The position numbers and the translations under genes were made by a program. The notes beneath the pieces are model-generated. The model was not told the DNA's origin, made no database searches, and saw only the letters and a program-made list of their open reading frames with translations. This document shows, piece by piece, positions 42,835 through 45,709 of a stretch of 45,863 nt of DNA. Origin of the DNA: a gamma proteobacterium symbiont of Ctena orbiculata (GTDB taxonomy: Bacteria > Pseudomonadota > Gammaproteobacteria > Chromatiales > Chromatiaceae); NCBI GenBank assembly GCA_003058525.1, contig QBVD01000019.1:1-45863 (forward strand), read 5' to 3'. Every line of letters begins with the position of its first letter. Position 1 is the stretch's first letter.

Positions 42835-43619
42835 GCCTGTTGAATGGCAGGGCGCTCTCCCTCAGTCGCGGGCAGCGGCCGATCCTAAAGGGTGTGGACC
42901 TGACACTGCACCCGGGGGAGATGCTGGGCCTGATCGGCCCCAACGGCGCGGGCAAGAGCACCCTGCTGCGCATCCTCGCCGGTGTGATCGAACCGGATGC
43001 CGGCACGCTCACCCTCGACGGTCAAGGGATCGGATCCCTCCCCCACCAAGCACGGGCCAGACGTATCGCCTACCTCCCGCAACTGAGCGAGATCGCCTGG
43101 CCCATAAGCGTGGAACGGATCATCGAACTCGGCCGCACCCCCCACCTGGAGCCCTGGCAATCCGTGGGAGAAACGGACAGGGAGATCATCGACAGGATCA
43201 TCCGGCAGACCGATCTGCTGGCGTTCAGGGATCGCGCCTTCAACACCCTCTCCGGCGGCGAACAGGCCCGCGTGTTGCTCGCCCGAGCCCTGGTCACCCA
43301 GCCCGACATCCTGCTGGCGGACGAACCCGTCTCCGCCCTCGATCCCGCCCATCAACTCGACGTCATGACCCTGCTCAGCGAACACTGCGAAGCGGGACAT
43401 GCCGTCATCGTCGTCCTGCACGACCTGAGCCTCGCCGCACACTACTGCCCGCGACTCCAGCTCCTGCACCAGGGTACAACCCTCGCGGAAGGGTCGGCGG
43501 AAGCGGTACTTAACGAGAAGAACCTGGCCGATGCCTATGACATTGCGCTGACCCAAGCCAACGGGAATGTGTTGAAGCCCGCCAGTCTGCCTTGGCGACG
43601 GCTTCATAAAGGCGAATAA
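42831..43619 (+). CDS. btuD: Cobalamin ABC transporter ATPase BtuD
   Basis: A 262-residue ABC ATPase that drives BtuC. Walker A GPNGAGKST at residues 36-44, Q-loop in YLPQ, signature LSGGE at 140-144, Walker B ILLADEP at 160-166, and the switch His in VLHDLS. ATG 42831 overlaps the btuC stop. A second copy of its C-terminal half is found at 44793-45200. Confidence 0.93.
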   Translation: MSLLNGRALSLSRGQRPILKGVDLTLHPGEMLGLIGPNGAGKSTLLRILAGVIEPDAGTLTLDGQGIGSLPHQARARRIAYLPQLSEIAWPISVERIIELGRTPHLEPWQSVGETDREIIDRIIRQTDLLAFRDRAFNTLSGGEQARVLLARALVTQPDILLADEPVSALDPAHQLDVMTLLSEHCEAGHAVIVVLHDLSLAAHYCPRLQLLHQGTTLAEGSAEAVLNEKNLADAYDIALTQANGNVLKPASLPWRRLHKGE

Positions 43620-43648
43620 AGACCGCCGTACCCGTTAAAAAGAGCCTC

Positions 43649-43677
43649 TTGTCCTTTAAGTAAATCCAACTTATCCT
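43649..43677 (+). promoter_or_regulatory. Candidate promoter of the HTH-GHKL-DUF4325 gene
   Basis: TTGTCC (43649-43654), a 17-base spacer and TATCCT (43672-43677) form a plausible sigma-70 promoter, with four of six matches in each box. Both boxes overlap TCCTTTAAG motifs, which fits repression. Confidence 0.42.
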
Positions 43678-43703
43678 TTAAGAAAACGATTATCTTAAAG
43701 GAC
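43652..43703 (+). promoter_or_regulatory. Triple TCCTTTAAG operator, two copies as palindrome
   Basis: TCCTTTAAG occurs at 43652-43660 and 43674-43682 in direct orientation (22 bp apart, about two helical turns), and inverted at 43694-43702. The last two form a perfect palindrome with 10-bp arms, TCCTTTAAGA and TCTTAAAGGA, and a 9-bp spacer (43674-43702). The last arm contains AAAGGA, the Shine-Dalgarno sequence of the gene starting at 43709. This looks like an autoregulatory operator. Confidence 0.7.
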
Positions 43704-43708
43704 CCACT

Positions 43709-44752
43709 GTGAATAACAGAGAAAGAGGCGAGAAAATCAGGCGCCAAATAGTCCGGGATGTGAGACACCATCCCACTGATATTTCAAAACATATTGCCAG
43801 TTTATTCTCAATAACCCCCCAGGCCGTAAATAATCATATTAAACGTCTGGAAAAAGAAGGGTGGCTAAGTTCGACGGGCAGCGGCAAGGGAAAACGATAT
43901 TTTCTGGGCGACTCAAGGAAACATAACTCATTGTTTCCGCTTACAGATGAGTTTACGGAAGATGGCGTTTGGAGAGACCATTTTTCCTTCTTATTTGATG
44001 GCCTGCCCGAGAACATATTCGATATATGCCACTACGGCTTTACTGAAATGGTAAATAATGTGATTGACCATTCCAGCGGTGAGCATATCTTTATCTCTGC
44101 CATGAGAGATCAAGAAAAAATCATGATTTTCGTGATGGATGATGGCGAAGGTATTTTCAGAAAAATCAAGCGGCTTTGCGAATTAAGCGACGAGCGCCAA
44201 GCCTTGTTCGAGTTATCAAAAGGGAAACTGACAACTGACCCGGACAATCATACAGGTGAAGGTATTTTTTTTACTTCCAGGGTATTTGATCAATTTGAAA
44301 TCGATTCACGAGGCACAAAATTCAGCCACGATGACAGTTTCGAATTTGATTATATTTTGGAAACAAACATTACAAGCAGTGAAGTCGGCACGGCAGTCTA
44401 CATGCTCATCAATCGGGATTCCGAGCGCAATATTCAAACCGTATTTGATGATTTTGCCGGGCCGGATGAGTTTCAGTTCAATAAAACGGTTATCCCTGTC
44501 CGGCTGGCTCAGTATGGAACTGAAAAGCTAGTCTCAAGATCTCAAGCGAAAAGATTATTAGCCCGTATAGAGAGATTTCAATACGTCATCTTTGACTTTG
44601 AGGGCGTATCGGCCATTGGCCAAGCTTTTGCCGATGAAATTTTTCGCGTATACGCACAGAACCACCCAGACATTGCGTTGTTACCTGACAACATGGTGTC
44701 TAATGTAGAGAAGATGGTCAGGCGGGCAATTTCGTCAAAGGCGGTTAATTAG
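43709..44752 (+). CDS. One-protein regulator: winged helix, GHKL ATPase, STAS-like DUF4325
   Basis: A 347-residue cytoplasmic protein. Residues 1-70 are a winged-helix DNA-binding domain (SITPQAVNNHIKRLEKEGWL, then a basic wing). Residues 90-240 are a GHKL/anti-sigma-type ATP-binding domain: N box EMVNNVIDHS, G1 DDGEGIF, G2 HTGEGIFF. Residues 255-345 match the STAS-like DUF4325: SRSQAKRLLARIERF, FDFEGVSAIGQAFADEIFRV. No phospho-acceptor His was seen. The start is GTG with AAAGGA six bases upstream. It is much more AT-rich than btuD before it and the btuD fragment behind it, which suggests transfer. The signal and target genes are unknown; three operator-like motifs at its start suggest autoregulation. 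Confidence 0.82.
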   Translation: MNNRERGEKIRRQIVRDVRHHPTDISKHIASLFSITPQAVNNHIKRLEKEGWLSSTGSGKGKRYFLGDSRKHNSLFPLTDEFTEDGVWRDHFSFLFDGLPENIFDICHYGFTEMVNNVIDHSSGEHIFISAMRDQEKIMIFVMDDGEGIFRKIKRLCELSDERQALFELSKGKLTTDPDNHTGEGIFFTSRVFDQFEIDSRGTKFSHDDSFEFDYILETNITSSEVGTAVYMLINRDSERNIQTVFDDFAGPDEFQFNKTVIPVRLAQYGTEKLVSRSQAKRLLARIERFQYVIFDFEGVSAIGQAFADEIFRVYAQNHPDIALLPDNMVSNVEKMVRRAISSKAVN

Positions 44753-44792: not shown

Positions 44793-45709
44793 CACACCAC
44801 CTGGGGCCCTGGCAGGAGCCGGGAGGAGAGGACAGGGAGATCATCGACAGGGTCGTCCGGCAGACTGATTTGATACCGTTCAGAGATCGCGCATTCAACA
44901 CCCTCTCCGGCGGCGAACAGGCCAGGGTCCTGCTCGCCCGCGCCCTGGTCACCGAATCCGACATCCTGCTGGCGGACGAACCCGTCTTCGCCCTCGACCC
45001 CGCCCATCAACTCGACGTCATGACCCTGCTCAGCGAACACTGCGAGGCGGGACACGCCGTCATCGTCGTGCTGCACGACCTCAACCTTGCCGCCCACTAC
45101 TGTCAGCGACTGCAACTGCTCTATGAAGGCAGCACCCTCGCCGACGGCGAAGTCGAAACAGTCTTGTCGGAGGAGAACCTTATGCGTGCCTATGAGATCG
45201 CAATCAATCCACCGGCAGAGACCGCATCGCTGTTCACTTGGTCGCTGATCTTCTTCGCTATAGTAACTGTCATTACGGGTATGTTCTTTTTCAATACCAA
45301 TAACTCAGTAAAAAGTCTTGATACCAAAACCCACAAGCCAGATAACATCACAGCAGAGAAGACAACTCAGACAACAACACCTTTTACTCAACACGAGGAA
45401 ACGAATAATAGAGAGGAAACAGGACGTATAGAAGACGATTATCAACCACACCAGGACCAACCTGACATGACGGAGGTTTTCGAAACCGCGACTAACATTC
45501 ACAATAACGCCACGGAATTTTATAATACCGTATTCCCCGGCATGGTGCAGAACTCTACCGGAAACTACGTTCATGAGGCCTACTCTGAGGCAACAATAGG
45601 CGAAGGTTTACCACCCACAAACAAAGCCACAAACAAGACACCCACTCTACAGTGTACCAATTACATTAGAAACACGACCATTTCTATCCGACCTGCATCA
45701 ATCAATTAG
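44793..45709 (+). pseudogene. 5'-truncated btuD paralogue fused to a membrane segment and Thr/Asn-rich tail
   Basis: From 44793 to about 45200 this repeats the second half of btuD (from residue 103 on) at high identity: LSGGE, ILLADEP and VLHDLN are intact, but Walker A and the Q-loop are missing. The frame is open from just after the preceding stop at 44750-44752 but has no good start; TTG 44870 is the first. After the homology ends, the same frame continues without a break into a membrane helix (FTWSLIFFAIVTVITGMFFF) and about 150 residues rich in Thr, Asn, Glu and Gln. The ATPase part cannot work alone. The tail may be a remnant of another gene joined by recombination. Confidence 0.75.

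Follow-up and report, generated by a model that had tools for sequence, protein, structure and literature searches.

Why should a kinase-like switch protein that occurs patchily across phyla seem to control only itself? This question is raised by a gene found in a stretch of 45,863 nucleotides (hereafter called the window) from a gamma proteobacterium symbiont of Ctena orbiculata. The product of this gene, a protein of 347 residues, matches the Pfam families PF14213, which is described as STAS-like (E-value 8e-14), PF13581 (8e-7) and MarR_2 (1e-5). The scores of the MarR-type winged helix-turn-helix (wHTH) are just below the thresholds (25.7 bits for MarR_2, cut-off 27; 24.0 for MarR, cut-off 24.6). 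The AlphaFold2 model of the protein has a pLDDT of 82.5 and its predicted recognition helix comprises residues 37-50, while the best Foldseek matches of the GHKL part are SpoIIAB and RsbW (1til_E, TM by target 0.70). An earlier note on this DNA had described a DNA-binding domain, a GHKL domain and a STAS-like domain joined in one protein, a description borne out by Pfam, the AlphaFold2 model and Foldseek. Residues E113 and N117, which we take to be the equivalents of the GHKL catalytic residues, are conserved in 103 and 104 of 105 family members, respectively. Among the matches listed from the open-licence literature there is no functional work on wHTH-GHKL-DUF4325 or STAS-like domain proteins, and two papers of that literature name DUF4325, in table entries alone. 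The analysis described here provides a computed operator for this architecture.

Upstream of the gene, there are three exact copies of the motif TCCTTTAAG and a degenerate fourth one (Table 1). The start-to-start distances are 22 bp between R1 and R2 and 20 bp between R2 and R3. As the earlier note had pointed out, two of the motifs lie over -35- and -10-like hexamers and the third, which is inverted, carries the Shine-Dalgarno sequence; the exact positions agree with this description. The Shine-Dalgarno AAAGGA is located 6 nt upstream of the GTG start. The hexamers TTGTCC and TATCCT are separated by 17 bp and constitute a weak sigma70-like match (8/12), which is not among the promoters listed by a consensus promoter scan of the window. 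In the whole 45.9-kb window, exact TCCTTTAAG is absent beyond R1-R3. When one mismatch is allowed, six occurrences are found against a chance mean of 6.38, so that what is unusual is the clustering of the motif and not its number.

Table 1. Positions in the window of the repeats, the predicted hairpin, the gene and its domains.
Feature	Positions	Strand	Description
R0	43631..43639	+	CCCGTTAAA; degenerate fourth copy, direct; 3 mismatches; 21 bp before R1
R1	43652..43660	+	Exact TCCTTTAAG; preceded by TTG; TTGTCC (43649-43654) is a -35-like hexamer
R2	43674..43682	+	Exact TCCTTTAAG; preceded by TA; TATCCT (43672-43677) is a -10-like hexamer
R2-R3 hairpin, read-through RNA	43674..43702	+	Stem 43674-43683/43693-43702; would cover the ribosome site
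R3	43694..43702	-	Exact TCCTTTAAG, inverted; contains the Shine-Dalgarno AAAGGA (43697-43702)
Gene	43709..44752	+	347 aa, GTG start; MarR-like wHTH, GHKL (HATPase_c_2), STAS-like DUF4325
Residue 37 codon (Pro)	43817..43819	+	Start of the predicted recognition helix (residues 37-50)
GHKL ATPase/kinase-like domain	44000..44320	+	aa 98-204 (Pfam); E113, N117 and glycine boxes conserved
STAS-like DUF4325 domain	44543..44701	+	aa 279-331 (Pfam); Q305-A306 in the window protein

The direct-direct-inverted triplet is shared, at unchanged spacing, by the window and the four homologues closest to it (L001-L005, identity of 68% or more). Its offsets from the start codon are identical in L001-L004 (-57, -35 and -15), and L005 has the same spacing one base closer. 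The upstream DNA of L004 (also seen via L047) and L005 is visibly different from that of the window, and the spacing of the triplet is still kept. Thus, the motif that the earlier note expected upstream of close homologues is indeed found there, with conserved spacing. In a wider set of 32 near-clade members, which includes three (L031, L042 and L046) without the TCCTTTAAG form, R1 with no more than one mismatch is found in 25, R2 in 29, R3 in 24 and R0 in six. The distance between R1 and R2 is exactly 22 bp in 24 of the 32 members, TTG precedes R1 in 22 and TA precedes R2 in 27. Five Chlorobiaceae that retain R1 and R2 have two mismatches in R3. Among the 26 members of the TCCTTTAAG class, TTG is particular to R1, and the profiles of R2 and R3 (the latter on its own strand) show AT before TCC. 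The confinement of TTG to R1 fits a -35 core that has been retained at this position.

The repeats are a property of the family as a whole. A collection of 105 distinct members, each with at least 100 bp upstream, was obtained from 127 matching ORFs in 122 loci after leaving out duplicates (L020, L021, L039, L047, L080 and L089), profile matches starting past position 12, members whose upstream stretch is below 100 bp and repeats of the same upstream region. The collection includes L018, the first piece of a gene copy that is broken in two (L018/L019) in G088, a genome of the same family. A tandem repeat at a lag of 21 or 22 bp was detected in 95 of the 105 homologues versus 32 of 590 control promoters, the controls being the upstream regions of neighbouring genes; in the other 10 members no repeat was seen at the threshold used. 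This comparison refutes a chance cluster of an AT-rich motif, an idea to which the chance-level count of one-mismatch copies in the window would have lent itself and to which we now attach practically no probability. For 9-mers repeated with at least 8/9 identity, a lag of 22 bp was found in 72 of the 105 members, 21 bp in 54 and 43 bp in 36; dinucleotide shuffles gave about 2 members (~2.3) per lag for the same score. Three-copy arrays are present in 54 of the 105 members and in 3 of the 590 controls, the commonest spacing being 21 and then 22 bp (32/54). Another sample, of 398 genomes, yielded six more members, all distant; three of them reach the repeat threshold and three do not.

The inverted copy is restricted to one part of the family. 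Counting with flanks included and up to two mismatches in 10-13 bases, it was found in all 26 members of the TCCTTTAAG class, in 1 of 47 of the TTGACAA class and in none of nine of the TTTACAA class. Because of this restriction, the arrays are direct repeats by origin, and the class of the window has retained R1 and R2, has in many cases lost R0 and has gained the inverted R3. The palindrome described in the earlier note is a trait of the TCCTTTAAG class, but the layout of the family as a whole consists of direct repeats 21 or 22 bp apart. The 7-bp cores of the units are themselves near-palindromic (CTTTAAG/CTTAAAG and TTGACAA/TTGTCAA each deviate from full symmetry at the central base alone), so that the head-to-tail direction rests on the flanking bases. 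In the TTGACAA class, 37 of 47 members contain TTGACA followed, after 16-18 bp, by GACAAT, a count that is no independent test of a promoter since the class is defined by its repeats. Consecutive repeats can be read here as -35 and -10 boxes, and hence array and promoter can share letters.

The sequence of the repeats differs between lineages. In the class of the window it is TCCTTTAAG, in the largest group it is GGTTGACAA (120 copies profiled) and in others TTTACAA, with divergent forms in L046 (CTTGTTTAA), L042 (a TTGTAG core) and L012 (TGTTGTCGA). Members were assigned to motif classes with fixed patterns, in which TTGTCAA (TTGACAA in reverse complement) counts as a direct variant. Residue 37, with which the predicted recognition helix begins, is arginine in all members of the TTGACAA (47/47) and TTTACAA (9/9) types, 56 of 56 altogether. 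In the 26 members of the TCCTTTAAG type it is proline, alanine or leucine, and never arginine. The 23 of 105 members that belong to no motif class have arginine (14), proline (5) or other residues (4). Residue 42 is lysine in 39 of 47 members of the TTGACAA type and in 2 of 9 of the TTTACAA type. In a tree built from the other domains, the TCCTTTAAG clade falls within lineages that have R37, and the change to P37 and TCCTTTAAG seems, on this topology, to be one clade-level event. Fisher values for the association between residue 37 and motif class consequently overstate the independence of the members. Host taxonomy is not explanatory: Gammaproteobacteria are present in both classes, the TCCTTTAAG class extends to Chlorobiaceae, Sulfurimonas and Sulfurovum as well, and motif class tracks the protein clade. 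These natural pairs of operator and helix (P37 with TCCTTTAAG, R37 with TTGACAA) make the specificity testable by swaps.

The covariation bears on whether the protein that binds the repeats is the one encoded behind them. The repeats could instead be bound by a host regulator, or be activator sites, the HTH of the gene acting elsewhere; the weakness of the promoter match in the window would be in keeping with an activator. However, the repeat sequence follows the recognition helix across phyla and not the host, and in the genomes searched the tandem motif is found almost nowhere but at this gene, as detailed below, which makes such a regulator improbable. The genome of the window (G000, 4.74 Mb) has a single tandem pair and a single inverted pair, both at the gene, and ATCCTTTAAGAAAA with up to one mismatch retrieves the site of this gene alone. 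With up to three mismatches the tandem has one other match, versus four for the control. Nine further genomes were searched with exact patterns, seven of them per pattern, and the tandem adjoins the gene in six of the nine (G582, G019, G588, G584, G586 and G587). G583, G585 and G180 have no exact tandem at the gene, their motifs being different from the patterns or inexact. Away from the gene there is one tandem match in G584 and one in G583 (whose own gene has another motif), and the reversed-pattern control gave two. The match in G584 (G584:C1:627238-627266) is an extra TTGACAA tandem away from the gene in a genome of the TTGACAA type, which may be due to chance or be a second target. No regulon was found in G000 and the nine further genomes.

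Self-binding autoregulation of the gene through its own repeats is, judging from the sequences, by far the best reading and quite probable. The repeats would be the dedicated operator of the gene that they precede. The wHTH would bind head-to-tail sites 21-22 bp apart, that is, at two helical turns and on one face of the DNA, and the bound protein would overlap its own -35 and -10 boxes and repress its own promoter, with cooperative binding across the repeats blocking RNA polymerase. In the class of the window, the ribosome site is overlain by a third, inverted copy. A partner-switch module within the chain would be formed by the GHKL domain, which is SpoIIAB-like and has its ATP-site residues intact, and the STAS-like domain; this module most likely controls oligomerisation and hence release from the operator. 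The DNA itself shows that the array is conserved, that it is re-coded together with the recognition helix and is unique in the genome, and in what order the domains stand; the actual binding, repression rather than activation and an ATP-controlled release are what we infer. The self-repressing switch put forward in the earlier note is supported in part: the operator is conserved and co-varies with the recognition helix, and the two-layer scheme, in which RNA structure adds to the DNA operator, is plausible.

According to that scheme, the R2-R3 hairpin would have been selected to hide the ribosome site in transcripts reading through from upstream, the gene's own transcript starting inside the hairpin and being free. 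The end of btuD is at 43619, which makes read-through into the gene possible, and no terminator-like site between btuD and the gene is listed in the window scan. RNA starting at 43672 is computed to fold into a 10-bp R2-R3 stem (-13.6 kcal/mol, z -3.3). A start at 43649 favours R1-R3 pairing (-19.2 kcal/mol), which covers the ribosome site as well, and an RNA with its start at 43685 has no left arm, its ribosome site remaining unpaired. Across the 32 near-clade members, a leader that carries both arms has a more favourable computed fold than the gene's own leader, the former being longer and the comparison unshuffled. An upstream ORF in the same direction is present in 17 of 21 members with R3 within one mismatch versus 3 of 7 others, a weak association with p-values of 0.077 (one-sided) and 0.14 (two-sided) among related rows, from which four of the 32 members without a usable upstream ORF were left out. 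However, an inverted copy in a DNA operator yields an equal symmetry in the RNA, and the inverted copy is missing from 46 of 47 TTGACAA-type and from 9 of 9 TTTACAA-type members. In the five Chlorobiaceae with weakened R3, R1 and R2 are kept and the hairpins weaken to about -8 to -9 kcal/mol. The hairpin predicted in the earlier note does fold as a 10-bp stem, but it is confined to the TCCTTTAAG class and weakened in these five. Two-layer control is plausible but may be a consequence of the third copy, since selection on the DNA operator explains the symmetry equally; a hairpin selected in its own right seems to us somewhat doubtful. In transposase genes, hairpins of read-through RNA hide the ribosome site, with the same logic as that of the proposed second layer; the hairpin of the window family differs from them in being limited to one class and weakened in part. 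In the autoregulatory reading, hiding of the ribosome site in read-through RNA would be a plausible side effect.

The surroundings of the gene show no constant partner. No conserved neighbour was detected among 912 ORFs of 104 loci, with flanks of 1.5-6 kb, and the largest cluster of neighbours comprises six loci in mixed positions. In an uncontrolled tally of 73 proteins from 26 near-clade loci, based on PADLOC and Pfam, neighbours were mixed and some of them defence-like, with matches to type I R, SLFN/AlbA, IetA/IetS, SoFic, PIN and PD-Lambda-1 alongside housekeeping genes. For instance, SLFN_AlbA_2 adjoins L028, PIN adjoins L030 and a subtilase adjoins L032. Assignment of the gene itself to a known defence family was rejected, PADLOC giving weak partial protein matches alone (best E-value 1.9e-4).

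Occurrence across phyla is patchy, which suggests horizontal transfer. Relatives of the gene are present in 23 IMG/VR loci, and no match was found in 72,556 plasmid and 50,697 phage records (E-value 1e-5), for which reason a plasmid or phage gene was discarded. An iteron- or centromere-like element of a mobile element, for which autoregulation would be secondary, would be in agreement with the patchy distribution. Direct repeats near 22 bp with an inverted copy at the promoter also resemble the iteron/operator layouts of Rep genes. Nevertheless, the plasmid and phage records lack a match, and near-clade neighbours include housekeeping genes and no conserved companion in the flanks, so that we regard this origin as very improbable.

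Behind the gene, positions 44797-45111 are an 88% identical copy of the 3' part of btuD (43142-43456). The same layout is present in L020, whose protein is 95% identical, and a weaker match of 81% is located there in L021; L047 has no btuD in common with the window in the stretch compared.

The DUF4325 domain is also found detached. Stand-alone DUF4325 ORFs occur in two IMG/VR contigs (L121:4968-5330 and L122:4983-5258), being 52% identical to the DUF4325 of the window, and the second ORF of L015 is a stand-alone DUF4325 behind a genome copy of the gene. These ORFs, which resemble the detached C-terminal third of the protein, are possible trans-acting partners. Viral scans with single detached DUF4325 domains retrieved one locus besides the queries. 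In two related genomes there is a set of three ORFs (L134:381-2224 and L135:409-2254) that consists of a GHKL-like protein of 335-342 aa, a DUF4325 protein of 100-104 aa and a short third ORF; this set is reminiscent of VapK-VapS.

In L134 and L135, the DUF4325 proteins have Ser-Ser where the window protein has Q305-A306. The position of the presumed STAS acceptor was inferred from the GSSF segment of these proteins and a weak alignment to 3t6o (E-value 0.68), CapS not being part of the alignment. At residue 305, so mapped, glutamine is found in 96 of 105 members, three have gaps and none has serine or threonine. Residue 306 is serine in 14 members, and neither residue is serine or threonine in 88 of the 102 members with letters at these positions. 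The viral stand-alone domains L121 and L122 also have glutamine at the presumed acceptor position. Phosphorylation in cis of the CapS type is thus unsupported. Because the presumed acceptor serine is missing, ATP-dependent docking of the STAS-like domain and the GHKL domain, or else a trans-acting partner, would be favoured over phosphorylation in cis.

Different known systems share parts of this architecture. The wHTH, whose MarR scores lie just below the cut-offs, and the predicted operator over the own promoter bring to mind the MarR-family autorepressors. The usual MarR layout is a single palindromic operator bound by a symmetric dimer, in contrast to the window family, which has an array of direct repeats and C-terminal GHKL and DUF4325 domains. 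SpoIIAB-SpoIIAA and RsbW-RsbV are similar in the match of the GHKL fold and in having a STAS-like partner domain. The SpoIIAB and RsbW systems control sigma factors in trans and are not known to have a wHTH in the chain. The antagonists of SpoIIAB and RsbW carry an acceptor serine, as mentioned in PMC13373217. In VapKSC, a GHKL kinase and a STAS partner also act as a switch, the output being a VapC-like toxin, but no DNA-binding domain is described for VapK or VapS in that article's section on the system (PMC13373217).

The closest known system is CapK-CapS. CapK (HTH-STAS-GHKL), once activated by ssDNA, phosphorylates CapS (STAS-wHTH), which represses immune operons in addition to its own promoter (PMC13373217, EMBO J 2026). 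This work supplies a mechanism for comparison, and the term DUF4325 is absent from its main text. As presented there, the sites are palindromic, a conserved phospho-serine is located on STAS alpha-2 and an immune operon is mostly adjacent. Both systems have GHKL and STAS domains, a MarR/ArsR-like wHTH, which in the window family would likewise repress its own promoter, and an AT-rich half-site (TTAA) over the promoter, and the kinase residues of the CapK-CapS type are kept in the window family. However, CapK-CapS is described as two genes, capK followed by capS, with palindromic sites, an acceptor serine and an adjoining immune operon, whereas the window family has a single wHTH-GHKL-DUF4325 chain, tandem direct repeats, no presumed acceptor in most members and no conserved neighbour within the flanks covered. 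The gene of the window looks like a one-chain relative of the CapK-CapS logic, but it is not assigned to CapK-CapS because it differs in three defining features, the two genes, the acceptor serine and the adjacent operon. By this precedent (PMC13373217), release controlled by the GHKL and STAS-like domains is plausible, although the window family lacks the presumed phospho-acceptor.

A bolder proposal, speculative and in our opinion rather unlikely, is that of a stress or defence switch with one gene and one operator. The functions of CapK and CapS would be united in one chain targeting only itself, and a signal at the GHKL domain, through ATP-dependent docking of the non-phosphorylatable STAS domain and not through phosphorylation, would release the cooperative array; the protein would then flood the cell and be its own effector, and viral DUF4325 domains might plug the GHKL domain in trans.
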